A DNA stretch of 64,000 nt, from the NCBI GenBank assembly GCA_900314635.1, contig OMVY01000004.1:4878-68877 (forward strand), given 5' to 3'. Both the position numbers and the translations under genes were made by a program. Shown piece by piece: positions 34,201 to 62,435 of the stretch. Position 1 is the stretch's first letter. Each line of letters opens with the position of its first letter. The stretch is from an uncultured Methanobrevibacter sp. Its GTDB lineage: Archaea; Methanobacteriota; Methanobacteria; Methanobacteriales; Methanobacteriaceae. A model generated the notes under the pieces. It searched no databases. It was given only the letters and a program-made list of their open reading frames with translations, and was not told where the DNA came from.

Positions 34201-35166
34201 ATGGATGACTATCTGATTAAATCAAAATCAAAAACTAATCCTGACTATGGCTGCAATCCATATGAAAGGCCTATTGAAGAACATATATCCAAAGGCGTAA
34301 TCAATTTGGACAAGCCTTCAGGTCCAAGCTCCCATGAAGTGGACTCATGGGTCAAGAGAATTCTCCACGTGAATAAAACAGGCCATGGTGGAACGCTGGA
34401 CCCTAAGGTAACTGGAGTGCTGCCTATTGGAATAGATACTGCAACAAGAGTCAGCCAACTTCTTCTACCTGCAGGCAAGGAATATGTATGTCTTATGACA
34501 ATGCATAAGGAAATGCCTGAAGATCAAGTATATGAAATCTTTGACCAATTTACTGGAAAGATTTACCAGACCCCTCCAGTTAAATCAGCGGTAAAGCGAG
34601 AATTAAGGGTTCGAACAATCTACTATGCAACCATTTATGAAATCAAGGGCAAGGATGTTCTATTCAGGGTTGGATGTGAAGCCGGAACTTATATCAGAAC
34701 TTTATGTCATGATATCGGAGAGGCTTTAGGCTGTGGAGCCCATATGGCAGAGCTTAGGCGTACTCGTGCAGGGCCTTTCAATGAAAGGAATGATGACCTG
34801 GTCAATCTGCATGATTTAACCGATGCTTATCACTTCTGGGTGGAAGACGGCGATGAATCCTATTTGAGAAATGCAATCAAGCCAATGGAAGTGGCTGCGG
34901 ATCATCTTCCTCAGATATTTATCAAGGATTCAGCTGTAGAAGCAATCTGCCAAGGTGCAAAGCTTGCAGCAGGAGGTATCTCCATGCTTTCAAAAGGAAT
35001 CAAGCGAGGAGACCTTGTGGCAATAAAGTCCTTGAAGGGAGAGCTTGTTGCATCAGGAATTGCTCTAGCATCAACTGAGGAGATAATGAATGCGGATTCC
35101 GGTTTAGTTGTGAATACAAACAAGGTGTTCATGCAGCCGGGTGTTTATCCTATGGCTTGGAAATAG
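34201..35166 (+). CDS. truB: Pseudouridine synthase Cbf5/TruB
   Basis: 321 residues. The N-terminal KGVINLDKPSGPSSHEVDSWVKR and catalytic GHGGTLDPKVTGVLPIGID (the Asp of LDP is catalytic) are clear, followed by YVCLMTMHKE, the VKSAVKRELR loop and a C-terminal PUA domain (about 240-321 with GAKLAAGGI). In archaea this is Cbf5, the catalytic subunit of H/ACA guide RNPs that also makes tRNA Psi55. It lies after eL14, as in Methanothermobacter-like gene order. GGAG precedes the ATG by about 10 bases. Confidence 0.95.
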   Translation: MDDYLIKSKSKTNPDYGCNPYERPIEEHISKGVINLDKPSGPSSHEVDSWVKRILHVNKTGHGGTLDPKVTGVLPIGIDTATRVSQLLLPAGKEYVCLMTMHKEMPEDQVYEIFDQFTGKIYQTPPVKSAVKRELRVRTIYYATIYEIKGKDVLFRVGCEAGTYIRTLCHDIGEALGCGAHMAELRRTRAGPFNERNDDLVNLHDLTDAYHFWVEDGDESYLRNAIKPMEVAADHLPQIFIKDSAVEAICQGAKLAAGGISMLSKGIKRGDLVAIKSLKGELVASGIALASTEEIMNADSGLVVNTNKVFMQPGVYPMAWK

Positions 35167-35292
35167 TTATTTTTTCTTTTAATTGATTTATGAATTGCAT
35201 GGTAAAAAAATAAGTTGAAAAGTAAAGATGTTTTTTTTATTGATGCTAGAAAAAAGATTTAATTTAATAGTAAATTGAGAAAAGTGAGTTTT

Positions 35293-35787
35293 ATGGTTAC
35301 AGCAGATGATTTTAAAGATTATAAAAAAGGTTTTAACAATCAGTTTGTTTGTTTTGAGTATCCTTTCCTCTGGAATGATATAAAATCTGAAGAGGAAGAT
35401 GAATTTACAGATGTAGTCCTTCACGACAGGCAGCATAACTCCATAGTAAAGATTTCCACAAAACCATGCACATTCAACACAGTGGATGAATTGAAAGAAG
35501 CTGTTGAAGTTGAGTTGAAGGAAAACAATTGTGAAATCCAGCAGTCAGCTGTCGAATCCCTTGAAAAACTTGATATTTGGGATATTTTCTATACAACAGA
35601 GGAAGAAGGCCTGGAAATAGAGCAGTTCCATATCTTAAAGGACAACAACCTCTACACTCTTGAGTTATACACTAAAAACAACAGGGATCCTGTCATAGTC
35701 AATGAGTTTGTAAAGGTCATTCAAAGCTTTAAGATTTTAAAACCAAGTTACAAGATAACTGAAGATGGTTACGAGCACTTGGAGTAA
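35293..35787 (+). CDS. Uncharacterised cytosolic protein (PsbP/DcrB-like fold possible)
   Basis: 164 residues from the ATG at 35293; a longer reading from 35275 is possible. No signal peptide or membrane helix. The central pattern FVCFEYPFLWNDIKSEEEDE, then IVKISTKPCTF, ending with NLYTLELYTKN and VNEFVKVIQSFKI, resembles the alternating strands of PsbP/DcrB-type domains, where a peptide near the start is followed by a final helix with a conserved Phe. That comparison is by eye only. It stands alone at the start of the accessory block between cbf5 and rps13; a perfect hairpin follows. Confidence 0.7.
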   Translation: MVTADDFKDYKKGFNNQFVCFEYPFLWNDIKSEEEDEFTDVVLHDRQHNSIVKISTKPCTFNTVDELKEAVEVELKENNCEIQQSAVESLEKLDIWDIFYTTEEEGLEIEQFHILKDNNLYTLELYTKNNRDPVIVNEFVKVIQSFKILKPSYKITEDGYEHLE

Positions 35788-35804
35788 TCCTTATTTTTAA
35801 AAGT

Positions 35805-35821
35805 AGGAGTTAAAAACTCCT
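35805..35821 (+). terminator. Perfect 7-bp hairpin after the 164-residue protein
   Basis: AGGAGTT (35805-35811), AAA loop, AACTCCT (35815-35821), 17 bases past the stop. Confidence 0.5.
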
Positions 35822-35931
35822 CTGATTTAATTTATTTATAAATATTTTTTTTACTTCATTGAAATGGGAATATTTTAATTTACTGTTTTTTTTAATTATT
35901 AATTTAATTTAAATATTCTAAATATGTCCAT

Positions 35932-36016
35932 ATTCAAATTTGATAGGTTTATTCAAATTTGATAGGTTTATTCAAATTTGATAGGTTTATTCAAATTTGA
36001 TAGGTTTATTCAAATT
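35932..36016. repeat. 19-bp tandem repeat, four and a half copies
   Basis: ATTCAAATTTGATAGGTTT begins at 35932, 35951, 35970 and 35989, with a partial copy from 36008. The copies are identical. They lie between convergent genes. Confidence 0.92.
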
Positions 36017-36059
36017 ATTTTTAAATTATTATTTCTTAATTCCCAATTATAAGCGGTTT

Positions 36060-36212
36060 TTATATAAATAAACCAATCAATATCATAATGGCTAAAATAA
36101 TAAGACAAGCTATAAATATGCCTCCGCATCTGCTATTTTCATCACTTATAAAGGCCTTGTCGTCATTAGCCATATCATCGAGCAAAATCAGTTCTAATTC
36201 ATCATCTATCAT
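36060..36212 (-). CDS. Possible 50-residue single-pass membrane protein
   Basis: A minus-strand frame reads MIDDELELILLDDMANDDKA, then FISDENSRCGG, then a hydrophobic stretch IFIACLIILAIMILIGLFI to the stop. The acidic soluble N-terminus and the C-terminal helix make sense as a tail-anchored peptide, and no part is low-complexity. There is no clear RBS; a TATA-like stretch lies about 40-50 bases upstream, so it might be leaderless or short-leadered. A plus-strand frame over the same DNA (36088-36270) is less convincing. Function unknown. Confidence 0.5.
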   Translation of the reverse strand: MIDDELELILLDDMANDDKAFISDENSRCGGIFIACLIILAIMILIGLFI

Positions 36213-36420
36213 GTTTATGAATATTTTTAATCTATTATTAATTTTTTATGATATTGTTAAAGTTTTATAAAAATATTTTAGAAATATTTAATATGCTTAA
36301 GGAAAAAATAATTATTATATTGTTTGAATTGAAATTAAATCTCGATTATGGGGTTTAATTTAAAAAAAGATTATTATTAATTTGATATATGCATTGATTA
36401 AATAAATATTGAGGGATATC

Positions 36421-36873
36421 ATGGAAAAAAAGATTACTGAATACCGGGCTCTTTTAATTGATGAGAATAATAAGAAATTCAATGGTGTGGCTGTTTTTGA
36501 AGAAGACGGTCTTGTTTTAGAAAAAAGAAGCAGATTGAATGGCAAATTAAAGGAATCTTTAAAAGTCTCTTATGACGATATTCCTCTTGATGGAATCAAC
36601 AGGCCGGCTTTCAATAAAATAGAGTTTAAGCTGAAAGATGATCCATATGCTTTGAAAACAATAGATGAAGATGAACTGGATGAATTTGAAAGAAAGCTAT
36701 CCAACAGGATTCAAGGCATTGATGATGATGTGGATGAGAATGTTAAAATCGTGTATAAGGCTCCAAAAGAAGACATTCCAGATCAAATAAGAAAATATCA
36801 TGATTTGTATAAGGATGGAATAATTACTGAAGAAGAGTTTGAATCTAAAAAGAAGGAGCTTTTGGATTTATAA
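36421..36873 (+). CDS. SHOCT-domain protein
   Basis: 150 residues from the ATG at 36421, which follows GAGGG. The C-terminus (about 120-150) reads DQIRKYHDLYKDGIITEEEF and then ESKKKELLDL, a clear SHOCT motif (short C-terminal domain: helix, G-x-I-T-x-E-E-F, helix). The first 75 residues look like a beta-rich PH-like module (VAVFEEDGLVLEKRS), a common partner of SHOCT. The joining part is acidic. SHOCT domains often mediate oligomerisation; the specific role is unknown. Confidence 0.8.
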   Translation: MEKKITEYRALLIDENNKKFNGVAVFEEDGLVLEKRSRLNGKLKESLKVSYDDIPLDGINRPAFNKIEFKLKDDPYALKTIDEDELDEFERKLSNRIQGIDDDVDENVKIVYKAPKEDIPDQIRKYHDLYKDGIITEEEFESKKKELLDL

Positions 36874-36987
36874 TTCTTTTTTTTAATCGTTTATGTAATT
36901 TTTAAAGTCTTTTATTCTTTTTATAATGGCATATAATTTTTTAGTCTTTAATTTTTTATATTTTTTTAAAATTTCTATCAATTTTTT

Positions 36988-39309
36988 TTAATTATCATTT
37001 TCTTTTAAGTTTTCCAATTCTCTTTTTAATAAGTGGTAAATGCTTTCAGCGCCAATCAAGTCATCATTGATCTTCCAGTAGCTCGGATGCATGATAAATG
37101 GTTTAGTCTGAGTTCCTCCAAGACCTCCATGGCTTCCAACTAGCTCTTCAAATGAGGCCACTTCATCATTTTCCTTATCATAAAAGCTGTTTACCAGGAT
37201 GTCTGGTACTGTGGAAAAGGAGTTTGTTCTTCTTAAATGGTCTGCAGCATTCTCTCCGAAGTCCTTTAATGGATTTTCACCAGTATAGGTGTCTGAATCG
37301 AGATAGTAGACTCCCTTGTCTGAAATGACAATAGGGCCTCTCTCTTCAGTGTCTACTAGTATGAACCCGATATAGGGATTGTTTACAAGTCCAGGAATCA
37401 AATCTGGAAACAGGCCGATAATTGATTCATATGTAAGCCTTGCAGTCCATTGTGTGAAATATATAAGCCCTAGATTGCCTGATGCAAGGACAATTGCCTC
37501 TGAATCTTCAAGTTTTGTTTTTTTATTTCTTTTTTTAGGCTCGTATTTATTGACATAGCTCAATTCATTGTCATAATCAGTTAATATTGTGTCTCTTTGT
37601 ATGGAATATCTTTCAAAGAGGAGGTCCCTTTGCTTTTCATATTTTTCCACAAGATTGTCTTTCTGTCTTTCATACTTGTCTCTTATGTTGTCTTTCTGCT
37701 GCTCGTATCTCTCGACAATGTTGTCTTTCTGTTCTTCGTATTTTTCTATGAGGTTGTCTTTCTGTTCTTCGTATATTTCTATGAGGTTGTCTTTCTGTTC
37801 TTCGTATTTGTCCATTAAATTGTCCTTCTGCTGGCTGAATGGAACATATGCTCTTTTCATATTGGTGTTGTCGGGATCGAAATCACCAAATACATCCATG
37901 TCTTCAGGAAGAAGGGCGCTTACAAGAGCGTCCAATCCGACTCCATCGTTTCTCTGCTTGAAGGTGGCGCCATTGCTTTGCCCATGGTCTGACAGGATTA
38001 CAAACTCGTATTTTCTTTTTGAATAAGATGCCGCATGCTCTATTCTTGAGAAGTGCTTGTCCAATTTTTTCAAATATCTGAAGCTGTCCCTGTCTCTTAT
38101 TCCTGAGTGGTGGGCTATTTCATCATAGCCAAGATATGTTGCATAGATGATGTCAAGCTCTCCGTCCATCATGTCCCAGATAAGGGTTTTTGTATTGAAT
38201 TCCCTGAGAATTACGCTTGCTCCAGCTCTAATGAAAGCATATACAAATCCTCTTGAGATTCTAGGTCTCACATTCAATACGAACTGCCTTATTTGAGATA
38301 TGTACTCAAAGATCACATCTTCTAAAAATAAAACAAAAATACGTGTGAAGCTGTCAATGTTTGAAAATACCAGTCTCCATGCCTTATTATATTCCGCCTT
38401 GAAGTTTGAAATAATGTCTGAGGATACATAGATGAGGTTTTTGCTGTCGCCTGAAAATAAGTTGCATCGTCCAGCCCCATTGTGTTTAAGCAGTCCATCA
38501 TGATTGGATATCTTTTTCTCCATTGAAGCAACATCGCTGAAGCTTCCGCAGCTCATTACTTTGTTGTGATTTTTCTTGTCGACCCATCGGTAGGCAACTA
38601 TGTCCGTGTTGTTTCCATGCAGTATTCCTGCCTGGCTCGCTCCGGTCTGGCTTGACAAGTCGGTTTCCCATCCTGTTATGGAATGGCTTCCCCTTTCAAT
38701 CCAGCTTTTTAGTGTAGGCATGTATCCTGAATCAATAGCTTCTTCAAGGATTTCCCTTGCAAGGCCGTCTATTTCGAGAATTATCATGCCCTTCTTGCGT
38801 TTAACATGATCTTCCCTTCTTTTAAGAGCATCTTTTGTAAATGATCTGTAATAAGTACTGTTGTCGTCAACAGCCAATATTTCAGATATTGCAGTTGTAA
38901 TTATAGCCATCAAGAGCGGTGTGAAAAAGAGTGCATAGCCTGAAGCTGTAAATCCAGGTATCATCAATGTCAGAAATTTAAGAAGCAGCGCATTCAATAT
39001 GAAGCTTCCAACACCCAGAGTCACAATTAGAAAAGGCATGAGAACTCTGGATACAATTGGCCATAAGAGGGAATTTATCAAACTTAAAGAAATTATGACG
39101 ATCGCTCCTGTAAACAGGCTGTCCATGTTTATGCCTATATTTAATGGAACTAAGGCCACAAGACCTATGAAATTTCCTATTAAAAGTACGATTGTTCTTG
39201 TTATTCCCTTACGGTATGATATCTTCTCTATTTCAGGCTCATAGTCCTCAGGTGTTCTATCAATAGTTTTTTTAATACTTTTGGTATCAATTTTGAGTTT
39301 TCTATCCAT
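36988..39309 (-). CDS. Membrane protein: holin-like domain fused to an alkaline phosphatase-fold hydrolase with an 11-residue repeat insert
   Basis: 773 residues. GGTGAT ends 3 bases before the ATG. Residues about 35-150 hold four membrane helices resembling the phage holin 4_2 (PF04020) family. From about 175 a type I phosphodiesterase/nucleotide pyrophosphatase domain follows: ILEIDGLARE (metal Asp), SSQTGASQAGILHG (probable Thr/Ser nucleophile), YLGYDEIAHHSG and VILSDHGQSNG (metal Asp/His), and GSHGGLGG near the end. Between the metal-ligand parts, residues 494-581 are eight repeats of 11 residues of the type QKDNLIEKYEE, a probable coiled coil. The substrate is unknown; a lipid- or wall-linked phosphodiester is a guess. 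Confidence 0.8.
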   Translation of the reverse strand: MDRKLKIDTKSIKKTIDRTPEDYEPEIEKISYRKGITRTIVLLIGNFIGLVALVPLNIGINMDSLFTGAIVIISLSLINSLLWPIVSRVLMPFLIVTLGVGSFILNALLLKFLTLMIPGFTASGYALFFTPLLMAIITTAISEILAVDDNSTYYRSFTKDALKRREDHVKRKKGMIILEIDGLAREILEEAIDSGYMPTLKSWIERGSHSITGWETDLSSQTGASQAGILHGNNTDIVAYRWVDKKNHNKVMSCGSFSDVASMEKKISNHDGLLKHNGAGRCNLFSGDSKNLIYVSSDIISNFKAEYNKAWRLVFSNIDSFTRIFVLFLEDVIFEYISQIRQFVLNVRPRISRGFVYAFIRAGASVILREFNTKTLIWDMMDGELDIIYATYLGYDEIAHHSGIRDRDSFRYLKKLDKHFSRIEHAASYSKRKYEFVILSDHGQSNGATFKQRNDGVGLDALVSALLPEDMDVFGDFDPDNTNMKRAYVPFSQQKDNLMDKYEEQKDNLIEIYEEQKDNLIEKYEEQKDNIVERYEQQKDNIRDKYERQKDNLVEKYEKQRDLLFERYSIQRDTILTDYDNELSYVNKYEPKKRNKKTKLEDSEAIVLASGNLGLIYFTQWTARLTYESIIGLFPDLIPGLVNNPYIGFILVDTEERGPIVISDKGVYYLDSDTYTGENPLKDFGENAADHLRRTNSFSTVPDILVNSFYDKENDEVASFEELVGSHGGLGGTQTKPFIMHPSYWKINDDLIGAESIYHLLKRELENLKENDN
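37567..37830 (-). repeat. In-frame 33-bp repeat coding an 11-residue coiled-coil unit
   Basis: Eight consecutive 33-base units inside the phosphodiesterase gene. The encoded units begin QKDN in the first six and QRD in the last two; position 9 is always Tyr. Units 2-4 are closest to each other, the outer ones more diverged. Confidence 0.9.
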
Positions 39310-39417
39310 AGAATCACCTAATTAAATCTGTTGCCGATTTAGTTTACAATAATTTAGTTTATTCCTTTTGGAATTTGCATTATTTTTTTTTATTTTATTT
39401 GATTTTTATTTAAAATA

Positions 39418-39580
39418 TCTAGTTTCATTTAGGTTATTCGTTTTCTTTTCTCTCTATTTTCTCATTTAAATTCTAGTTTCTTTTAGGTTATTCGTTTTCT
39501 TTTCTCTCTATTTTCTCATTTAAATTTCTAGTTTCTTTTAGGTTATTCGTTTTCTTTTTTCTCTATTTTCTCATTTAAAA
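39418..39580. repeat. 54-bp tandem repeat that includes the 3' end of the TPR-like gene
   Basis: Three units (39418-39471, 39472-39526, 39527-39580). The third contains the last codons and stop of the minus-strand gene. The other two, beyond the stop, still encode NEKIERKENE plus a stop in the same order, with Lys changed to Arg. Confidence 0.88.
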
Positions 39581-40403
39581 TATCAATAGTCTCTTTAATA
39601 GCCGGATCTTTGCTTAAATCATATGCGATATTGAAATAAAACAATGCAGGAACCACTTTCTTGGCTTCGTCCAATTGGAATCCAAGTGTTTTGCAGATTG
39701 TAATTATCTCAATTGAAGCTTCATGAGGCAGGTTTTTGGATTTGAGATATTCCTTTATCTTTGAAATATCATACCCATCATCCCCTTTGAATTCCAAAAT
39801 TGAATCAAGATCCAGTTTTTCCTCCAAATCCCCAAGTTCGCTAATGACTGTTTTTGACTCGCCGTCATATTCCCTGCTTAATATGAATAGAGAGCAGGCG
39901 GTTTTCATATCTTCAGCACTGTGTTTCTCCTTTTTATTCAAATAATAGTATGAAATGTTTCTAAGGGCTTTGGCAAGGTTTTCAAGTGAATAGCTGTACC
40001 TGGCGCATTCGATTGATATCTTCAAATATTCTCCAGGATTCTTATCCCTTTCAATTTCAGCAAGTGTCAAAAGAGCCTTTACATTTACCGGATTGTATTT
40101 CAAAGCAAGGTCCAGGCTTTTCAAAGACTCTTCAAATCTTGACATTTTAAAGAGTGCGATTCCATAATCAGCATAAAGGCTTGAATAATCCAGCATCAAA
40201 GGATATTTTCGCTTGATTTCTCCCTTTTTGAAAAACTGGAAAATGTACTCCTCGAGAATATTTTTAAAAGCATACTCTCCCTCGATGTATTTCTTGTTCA
40301 AATCAATATTCTCCAATCCAAAAGAGCACGCTTCCTCGTATTTCTCCTCTTGAACCATTTTGCCGATATCTTCTATTATCTTTGGAACAGGTTTGATTTC
40401 CAT
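39543..40403 (-). CDS. TPR-like repeat protein, function unknown
   Basis: 286 residues from the ATG at 40403, preceded by GAGGT; an in-frame TTG at 40418 is possible. It is helical throughout. A TPR-like pair is visible at about 85-125 (YADYGIALFKMSRFEESLKS then LDLALKYNPVNVKALLTLAE), the classic alternation of small and large residues with a Pro between helices. The rest (about 130-280) looks like degenerate helical repeats. It is probably a cytosolic scaffold. It has no obvious partner; neighbours are the phosphodiesterase on the same strand and tRNA-Ser. Confidence 0.75.
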   Translation of the reverse strand: MEIKPVPKIIEDIGKMVQEEKYEEACSFGLENIDLNKKYIEGEYAFKNILEEYIFQFFKKGEIKRKYPLMLDYSSLYADYGIALFKMSRFEESLKSLDLALKYNPVNVKALLTLAEIERDKNPGEYLKISIECARYSYSLENLAKALRNISYYYLNKKEKHSAEDMKTACSLFILSREYDGESKTVISELGDLEEKLDLDSILEFKGDDGYDISKIKEYLKSKNLPHEASIEIITICKTLGFQLDEAKKVVPALFYFNIAYDLSKDPAIKETIDILNEKIEKKENE

Positions 40404-40740
40404 GATTTGACCTCTCAATTATGCTTTGTATTTTTGATTTTAATAATTTTACTATTTAGTAATCTATACATTATCGTTTTAATTTTTTCATATAATTTGT
40501 AGAATTCATTTTTGAAATTCTTATAATTTTCCTTAAAATGAGCATTGTCAGCCTGTTAATTTTCATTGACTTTCGAACGCTTGATTTTATATAAATTTCA
40601 AAGCTTGAAAAATTGCATCAATTAAAATTTTAATAACTTATATAAATACTTTTTCTTTATTTTCAAAAAAATCTTTAAATATTATGAAAAACTAAGAGTT
40701 ATTTGGAAAGTTGATTTTTCAACTTAACTATTTTTTTTAA
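40404..40740 (+). other. Intergenic region with a possible small RNA
   Basis: Two TATA-like boxes (TTTATATAAA at 40586-40595 and CTTATATAAATA at 40637-40648) are followed by a perfect hairpin AAGTTGA/TCAACTT (40708-40725) and a T8 run. This is the layout of a short transcript of about 80-120 bases. No coding frame is seen. Confidence 0.35.
40708..40738 (+). terminator. Hairpin plus T8 upstream of tRNA-Ser
   Basis: AAGTTGA (40708-40714), TTTT loop, TCAACTT (40719-40725), then TTTTTTTT at 40731-40738. No plus-strand gene ends nearby. Confidence 0.5.
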
Positions 40741-40764
40741 AAAACAGGCTTAAAAATACAAAGC

Positions 40765-40772
40765 TTTAAATA
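40765..40772 (+). promoter_or_regulatory. Candidate box A of tRNA-Ser
   Basis: AAGCTTTAAATACTA, similar in design to the TATA region at 13991-14005. It lies about 70 bases before the mature tRNA; ATTATATG at 40801-40808 is a nearer alternative. Confidence 0.4.
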
Positions 40773-40837
40773 CTATGATAATCTTATAGTTTAATAGTGT
40801 ATTATATGCACACTTTATGCATATGATGCAGGCTATT

Positions 40838-40921
<84 letters not shown>

Positions 40922-40987
40922 TTTATTAGTATATAGCAATTTAATATAATTCAATGAGGATTATTATTGATGATTGATTTCATTAAA

Positions 40988-41040
40988 TTTAAATCCAATT
41001 CAATAAGCTTTACGAGTTGGATTTAAAATTTGCTTTTTTT
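40988..41040 (+). terminator. Hairpin plus T-run after tRNA-Ser
   Basis: Arms TAAATCCAA (40990-40998) and TTGGATTTA (41017-41025), extendable to 11 bp, followed by CTTTTTTT at about 41033-41040. Confidence 0.55.
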
Positions 41041-41235
41041 AATTTGTTAAATATAATCTAGCTATGCTTATCTATAGCAGTGGATTAAATTATTAAATTG
41101 GTCATATAACTGATATTTATGCACTCTTGGTGCAGTAGCAGTTGATTGTAGAACAAATCTTGGATTTGCTCTGAATTGATTCAATGCTGTATCAAGTTTT
41201 ATATTGTTGAAAACTGTGCTTTAATTTAAAGCATT
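41041..41235 (+). other. Leader region of the rps13 cluster
   Basis: Part of the 374-base gap between tRNA-Ser and rps13. No gene seen; A TATA-like TAAATATAAT occurs at about 41047. The strong hairpin at 41236-41268 is listed separately. Confidence 0.45.
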
Positions 41236-41268
41236 CGAATCCGCAATTTTTTGCGTCTCGCGGGTTCG
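41236..41268 (+). promoter_or_regulatory. Leader hairpin before rps13
   Basis: CGAATCCGC (41236-41244) pairs with GCGGGTTCG (41260-41268), 9 bp with one G-U. GCAA (41043-41046 plus 200, i.e. 41243-41246) can alternatively pair with TTGC (41251-41254), which would break the inner part of the long stem. The stem is strikingly GC-rich for this DNA and lies 16 bases before the rps13 RBS. Confidence 0.5.
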
Positions 41269-41295
41269 CTCTATAATTATATGGAGGTTACTTTA

Positions 41296-41742
41296 ATGGA
41301 AGACGACTTTAAGCACTTAGTGCGTATATCCAGAAAGGATGTAGATGGAAATAAGAAAATTGAACAAGCTTTAACCGAAATTAAAGGTGTTGGATTATCC
41401 TTATCTAGATCTATCTGTCTTACCTTAGGTTTAAACTTAGAAGAACAAATCGGTTACACCTCTGAAGAAGATATTGCTAAGATTGAAGAACTCTTAGAAA
41501 ATCCTAAAGAATACGGTATTCCTGATTGGATGCTTAACAGACGTAACGATTATGAAACCGGTGACGATCTTCATTTAATTGAATCAGATCTCGACATGAC
41601 ATTAAGAGACGATTTAAACAGAATGAGAAAAACCAGAAGTTACAAGGGAAGAAGACACGAAGTTGGTTTACCTGTTAGAGGACAAAGAACTAAATCTACT
41701 TTCAGACACAGTTCTACTGTCGGTGTAAGTAAGAGAAGGTAA
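41296..41742 (+). CDS. rps13: Small ribosomal subunit protein uS13
   Basis: 148 residues from the ATG at 41296, set by GGAGGT 7 bases upstream; an in-frame codon at 41251 lies in the leader hairpin and is rejected. It has [20 protein letters not shown], the helix-two-turn-helix with [14 protein letters not shown], and the basic C-terminus with [19 protein letters not shown]. It contacts tRNAs in the A and P sites of the 30S head. It is the first gene of the alpha-operon-like cluster. Confidence 0.97.
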
Positions 41743-62125: not shown

Positions 62126-62262
62126 ATTTTTTATTTTTCATTTTAGCTATTTTTTATGATATTTTTTTAATGGCTTGTTTTTTAGATTTCTATTTTTTCA
62201 TGTCTTTTTAAGATAAGACAAAATCATGAATTTTTTCATAGATTTAAAAAAACTAAAAAAAA

Positions 62263-62417
62263 GTAAAAACACTATAAAACGTTATAAAAAAGTAAAAAAG
62301 TAAAAACACTATAAAACGTTATAAAAAAGTAAAAAAAGTAAAAACACTATAAAACGTTATAAAAAAGTAAAAAAAGTAAAAACACTATAAAACGTTATAA
62401 AAAAGTAAAAAAAGTAA
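62263..62417. repeat. 37-38-bp tandem repeat, four copies
   Basis: GTAAAAACACTATAAAACG begins at 62263, 62300, 62338 and 62376; each unit includes TATAAAACGTTATA. Lengths differ only in A-runs. Confidence 0.92.
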
Positions 62418-62435
62418 AAAGGTTAAAAAACCTTT
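62418..62435 (-). terminator. Hairpin at the 3' end of the minus-strand membrane protein gene
   Basis: AAAGGTT (62418-62424), AAAA loop, AACCTTT (62429-62435), 3 bases past the stop; T-rich on the minus strand beyond it. Confidence 0.55.

Follow-up and report, generated by a model that had tools for sequence, protein, structure and literature searches.

An eight-unit 11-residue repeat as a probable helical arm inside the catalytic domain of a membrane-anchored Methanobrevibacter enzyme

Phosphonoacetate hydrolase, the NPPs and SPAP (1ei6, 3szy, 3q3q, 7n1s) share the catalytic-domain fold of the protein described here at about 10% identity, while a predicted membrane domain and an arm are added in the latter. 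Proteins with the same domain architecture (Pfam PF04020 followed by PF01663) and the same active-site residues are found in Methanobacteriaceae, at about 40–58% identity, and in Streptomyces, at 38–39% identity over the matched part. Undecads have been described in NadA3, where two of them lie inside a trimeric heptad stalk and form an intermolecular parallel trimeric coiled coil (PMC6191539). In the literature, we found nothing on this enzyme family in methanogens and no case of a coiled coil inserted into an alkaline-phosphatase enzyme. The locus lies in a stretch of 64,000 nucleotides (the window) from an uncultured Methanobrevibacter sp. Its array has the 11-residue period of the NadA3 undecads, with L5/I6 and Y9 matching their d/e and h positions; unlike them, its eight units, whose pairing is putative, are consecutive and interrupt a catalytic domain.

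Both Pfam families were matched above their gathering cut-offs: PF04020 with 40.1 bits against 28.8, and PF01663 (type I phosphodiesterase) with 38.4 bits against 23 (Table 1). The PF04020 match does not imply a holin function. NCBIfam returned no match to the protein, and a sequence search of the PDB returned no significant one (best E 0.66). An AlphaFold2 (AF2) model, computed from an input of 79 sequences and reaching a pTM of 0.82, comprised an alkaline-phosphatase fold and four membrane helices, the latter placed with high pLDDT at residues 32–56, 65–96, 101–116 and 126–144. A Foldseek search with this model gave 145 matches at E ≤ 0.001, with phosphonoacetate hydrolase first; the best PDB matches (phosphonoacetate hydrolase, SPAP and NPPs) had a probability of 1.00, in agreement with the fold named by an earlier reading of the locus from its sequence alone (the sequence-only reading). 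As assigned by motif and position, the full two-metal ligand set and the Thr/Ser nucleophile are present. Because these residues are invariant or nearly so in the 79 homologues, the enzyme is probably active, and we infer a membrane-anchored phosphatase or phosphodiesterase (PDE). Stretches rich in K/R precede the first membrane helix and follow the last, and the short loops between the helices are nearly uncharged. By the positive-inside rule, the K/R-rich flanks suggest that the N-terminus and the catalytic domain lie on the cytoplasmic side.

Table 1. Features of the PDE gene and its product, in window coordinates
Feature	Position	Strand	Evidence
CDS, 773 aa, membrane-anchored alkaline-phosphatase-superfamily protein	36988..39309	-	ORF; Pfam PF04020 and PF01663 above cut-off
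Four predicted membrane helices (Phage_holin_4_2, PF04020), residues 38-140	38890..39198	-	Pfam 6e-10
Alkaline-phosphatase-fold catalytic domain including arm, residues 174-770	37000..38790	-	Pfam PF01663; Foldseek
D181, predicted metal ligand	38767..38769	-	Invariant in 79/79
T222, predicted nucleophile, at helix start	38644..38646	-	Invariant in 79/79; assigned by NPP-enzyme analogy
D396...H400, predicted metal ligands	38110..38124	-	Invariant in 79/79
D441-H442, predicted metal ligands	37984..37989	-	Invariant in 79/79
H727 (SHGG), predicted metal ligand C-terminal of arm	37129..37131	-	Kept in 78/79
Array, eight 33-bp / 11-aa units, residues 494-581	37567..37830	-	Tandem Repeats Finder and lag identity
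Units 2 and 3, 97% identical DNA, youngest duplication	37732..37797	-	
Unit 8 (QRDTILTDYDN), followed by ELSYVNKYEP; position of the single L003/L050 unit (QKTYLENMYND-SLEYIEKYSP)	37567..37599	-	Sequences and tree
Predicted arm helix 1, residues 491-524, pLDDT about 45-51	37738..37839	-	AF2 model
Predicted arm helix 2, residues 528-578, pLDDT about 56, reaching 84-91 at base	37576..37728	-	AF2 model

The eight units of the array read QKDNLMDKYEE, QKDNLIEIYEE, QKDNLIEKYEE, QKDNIVERYEQ, QKDNIRDKYER, QKDNLVEKYEK, QRDLLFERYSI and QRDTILTDYDN. Q1, D3 and Y9 do not vary among the eight, and substitutions at K/R2 and L/I5 are conservative. Units 1–6 are clear copies of one another, while units 7 and 8 have diverged (3–5 of 11 residues shared). 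Identity at a lag of 11 residues is 0.62, followed by 0.56 at lag 22 and 0.55 at lag 33; no other lag exceeds 0.12. When the 88 array residues were shuffled 100,000 times with their composition preserved, no shuffle reached 0.62 at lag 11 (maximum 0.26), and Tandem Repeats Finder independently reported a 33-bp period at 37655–37830 (79% matches, score 184). The number of units, their extent and the fixed Tyr9 are exactly as the sequence-only reading gave them. The same holds for its placement of the array between metal-binding parts: the array comes after the invariant D441/H442 and before H727, that is, inside the catalytic domain. The array is acidic (17 K/R versus 26 D/E); its hydrophobicity averages close to zero, and its hydrophobic moment, 0.34, is modest. 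This moment is maximal at 98 degrees per residue (360*3/11), which supports an 11/3 periodicity, and AF2 predicts helix, in line with the sequence-only reading. The apolar stripe is made of L5, I6 and Y9, and K2 adds one charged core position per unit, a point against the hairpin arm favoured below; with an 11-residue period and apolar residues recurring at core positions, the array is a hendecad repeat.

Homologues of the protein occur in 113 of the 139 Methanobacteriaceae genomes searched, often in several copies each, and none was found at 1e-20 in 13 further genomes of the phylum. When the 88-residue array was used as the query, the 139 genomes gave a match nowhere but in the window's own genome. 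A contig search with the whole protein returned two relatives of paralogue type, both Methanobrevibacter MAGs, and a weak, repeat-driven match in Puniceicoccaceae. No other site in the family varies as much in length as that of the array, with roughly 74–248 residues between SDHGQ and SGN, and most homologues have a segment without periodicity there. In contrast to the eight units of the window protein, homologue L114, from Streptomyces sp. BHT-5-2, and the second copy in the window genome (L029), which has no insert at the array site, carry a short linker without repeats. Separately, a paralogue in genome G012 (L016) has a C-terminal imperfect 11-residue repeat (EYSNDNTALEK / EYSNDETALEK), another 11-residue array in the enzyme family at a different position.

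A tree calculated without the insert groups the window protein with L003 and L050 (support 99). These two hold one unit, in the arrangement PLNK-QKTYLENMYND-SLEYIEKYSP, where the window protein has PFSQ-[8 units]-ELSYVNKYEP, and the difference in length is 78 residues, or 7x11+1. As the nearest relatives have a single unit in this position, seven 33-bp units were gained. By the tree and the shared flanks, the array expanded from one ancestral unit in a single lineage and is not a family-wide feature. The sequence-only reading had named a non-periodic segment in homologues as grounds against it; most homologues have such a segment, which formally speaks against the reading, but the tree accounts for this by the expansion of one unit in one lineage. 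Its expectation that 33-bp units would change in number without frameshift is supported by the step from one unit to eight relative to L003/L050, and by whole-unit differences in a second clade (see below).

Between units 1–6, pS was 0.857 and pN 0.146 with all pairs counted, an estimate that rests on non-independent pairs of six units from one genome and includes saturated synonymous sites. With differences at 86% of synonymous sites and 15% of nonsynonymous ones, the divergence of the units goes back a long way, while their protein sequence was kept. The array has been under strong purifying selection after its expansion. A different history would be that replication slippage added functionless helical repeats to a surface loop in which they were tolerated. 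Such an expansion would suit the exceptional length variation of the site, a unit number that varies between close species and a same-genome paralogue, L029, that lacks the array. However, it fits badly with the strong purifying selection between units, with the retention of Q1, D3 and Y9 in 8/8 units and with the probably independent arrival, described below, of two unrelated arrays at 11-based helical periods; we regard it as decidedly unlikely. We favour instead a history in which one 11-residue helical unit was duplicated in tandem and in frame in the window lineage to form the array, which purifying selection has since retained.

In the AF2 model, the array is folded into two helices; the pLDDT is below 50 in the turn between them, below 55 in arm helix 1, middling in arm helix 2 and high at the base of the latter. 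The sequence-only reading had pictured a single straight rod, from which the model departs: helices 491–524 and 528–578 are separate, and both ends re-enter one domain. Judged from the model, the likeliest form of the array is a hairpin in which two helices of hendecad repeats run antiparallel. The hairpin is favoured because both array ends must re-enter one domain and AF2 gives two helices. A single rod is disfavoured because an unbroken helix of 88 residues would measure ~130 A against an N-side linker of about 15–18 residues, an argument that presumes a C-terminal base docked as in the AF2 model. Non-repeat relatives of the L024 type have a helix, a loop containing Gly/Pro and a helix at the array site, which suggests an ancestral hairpin at this position. 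AlphaFold reportedly introduces spurious bends into long coiled coils and lacks confidence with non-canonical ones (PMC11676326), and the hairpin turn may therefore be an artefact. The main competitor to a hairpin, close to the view of the sequence-only reading, is a parallel homodimeric rod, to which each monomer would contribute one long helix and which would serve as a dimerisation stalk through hendecad pairing. Intermolecular coiled coils with hendecads are known, NadA3 being one (PMC6191539), and the eight units contain no Pro or Gly that would mark a turn. Nevertheless, we consider this rod unlikely: both chain ends re-enter one domain through linkers of about 15 residues each, the helix is interrupted in the AF2 models of both independent arrays, and the non-repeat relatives have the interrupted helix pair just described.

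A distant clade of homologues (L004–L014, L022 and L062) carries another repeat at the array site, with units of IDNTKEKLDHR (11 residues) or IDNTKERIDNTKEKIDTR (18 residues, or 11+7). Members of this clade differ by whole units. L004 and L006, which are 95% identical outside the insert, differ in length by 29 residues, or 11+18; L011 and L012 differ by 18, and L004 and L022 by 36. The hydrophobic moment peaked at 98–100 degrees in all six arrays tested. Since 11 residues make close to 3 and 18 residues close to 5 full helical turns, the apolar stripe stays nearly straight with either length. In AF2, the array of L062 consists of two long helices, 465–509 and 517–574, with low to middling confidence as for the window array. 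The arrays of this clade thus share with that of the window the enzyme, the site, an 11-based helical repeat and a hairpin-like AF2 model, but their unit sequence is unlike that of the window, and their units are young, with 54-bp DNA units 95–100% alike, as against the diverged units of the window. The simplest reading of these sequences and of the tree is that the two sets of arrays arose independently. Independent origin is preferred because the clades are separated by deep branches of the tree and most of the intervening relatives have no repeat. Common ancestry was also considered: the two units share xDNxxEKx in one register, which amounts to four residues only between distant clades, and this origin is disfavoured. 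The convergence suggests that it is useful to have a long arm at that site.

The amphipathic stripe also allows for a helix of the apolipoprotein or alpha-synuclein 11-mer type, lying on membrane or lipid and keeping the catalytic domain flat against the membrane. This would accord with the 11/3 stripe, with the membrane anchor of the protein and with a match of the L062 array to Pfam Apolipoprotein (PF01442) at 46.9 bits, below the 90-bit cut-off. The window protein, by contrast, has no apolipoprotein match at E ≤ 0.01 in Pfam, and its acidic, weakly amphipathic array fits an anionic membrane poorly, which makes a lipid-lying helix quite improbable.

The genomic surroundings of the gene vary. 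None of its neighbours in the window adjoined a homologue in the eight loci examined, and synteny is not conserved. In the window (34201–41742), the PDE gene lies between cbf5 and rpS13; cbf5 is directly upstream of rpS13 in L120–L123 (genomes of groups g3, g5 and g6), the interval holds a TPR-like ORF in most g1 genomes checked (L116–L119), and PDE homologues in the other genomes examined are located away from it. A calcineurin-like phosphoesterase gene adjoins the PDE gene at L106:10424-11494, L101:4335-5396 and L102:8698-9765, and lies one gene away from it at L104:9913-10770, in three genera overall; the enzyme of L106 has a helical repeat of its own at the N-terminus (NKQKAEKVVQGIQE). The direct adjacency (L101, L102, L106) may reflect a shared pathway. 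In the window genome, the calcineurin-like homologue is found on another contig, and since the two genes are unlinked there, no PDE function is drawn from this neighbour. Tandem Repeats Finder reported three further tandem repeats in the window. A 54-bp repeat (39408–39584; 3.2 copies, 94% alike) immediately precedes the start of the PDE gene and overlaps the upstream TPR gene at its 3' end, a 19-bp repeat (35931–36016; 4.5 perfect copies) lies between a PsbP-like ORF and a SHOCT-domain ORF, and an A-rich 38-bp repeat (62247–62420; 4.6 copies, 97% alike) is intergenic.

We therefore favour a helical hairpin arm that would project from the catalytic domain of a membrane-anchored, probably cytoplasm-facing enzyme. 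The arm would most likely take no part in catalysis and would serve as a docking or self-association surface, or as a spacer. This explanation as a whole (a hairpin arm grown by duplication, retained under selection and with a mechanical or binding role) we hold to be moderately probable. A more speculative idea, to which we give little credence at present, is that the arm is tunable and acts as a molecular ruler: the straight-helix repeats of both lineages are 11-based, and a selected copy number would set the reach of the catalytic domain to a fixed partner or surface.

The main point of interest of the array is the convergence. The family preserves a natural record of a helical arm that has grown inside an enzyme domain by steps of 11 residues, from one unit to eight, and a second clade has repeated the growth with another sequence and still varies by whole units. 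Arm length can thus be tested as a variable in an enzyme family that is uncharacterised yet nearly universal in genomes of the Methanobacteriaceae, the family of the dominant methanogens of gut and rumen.
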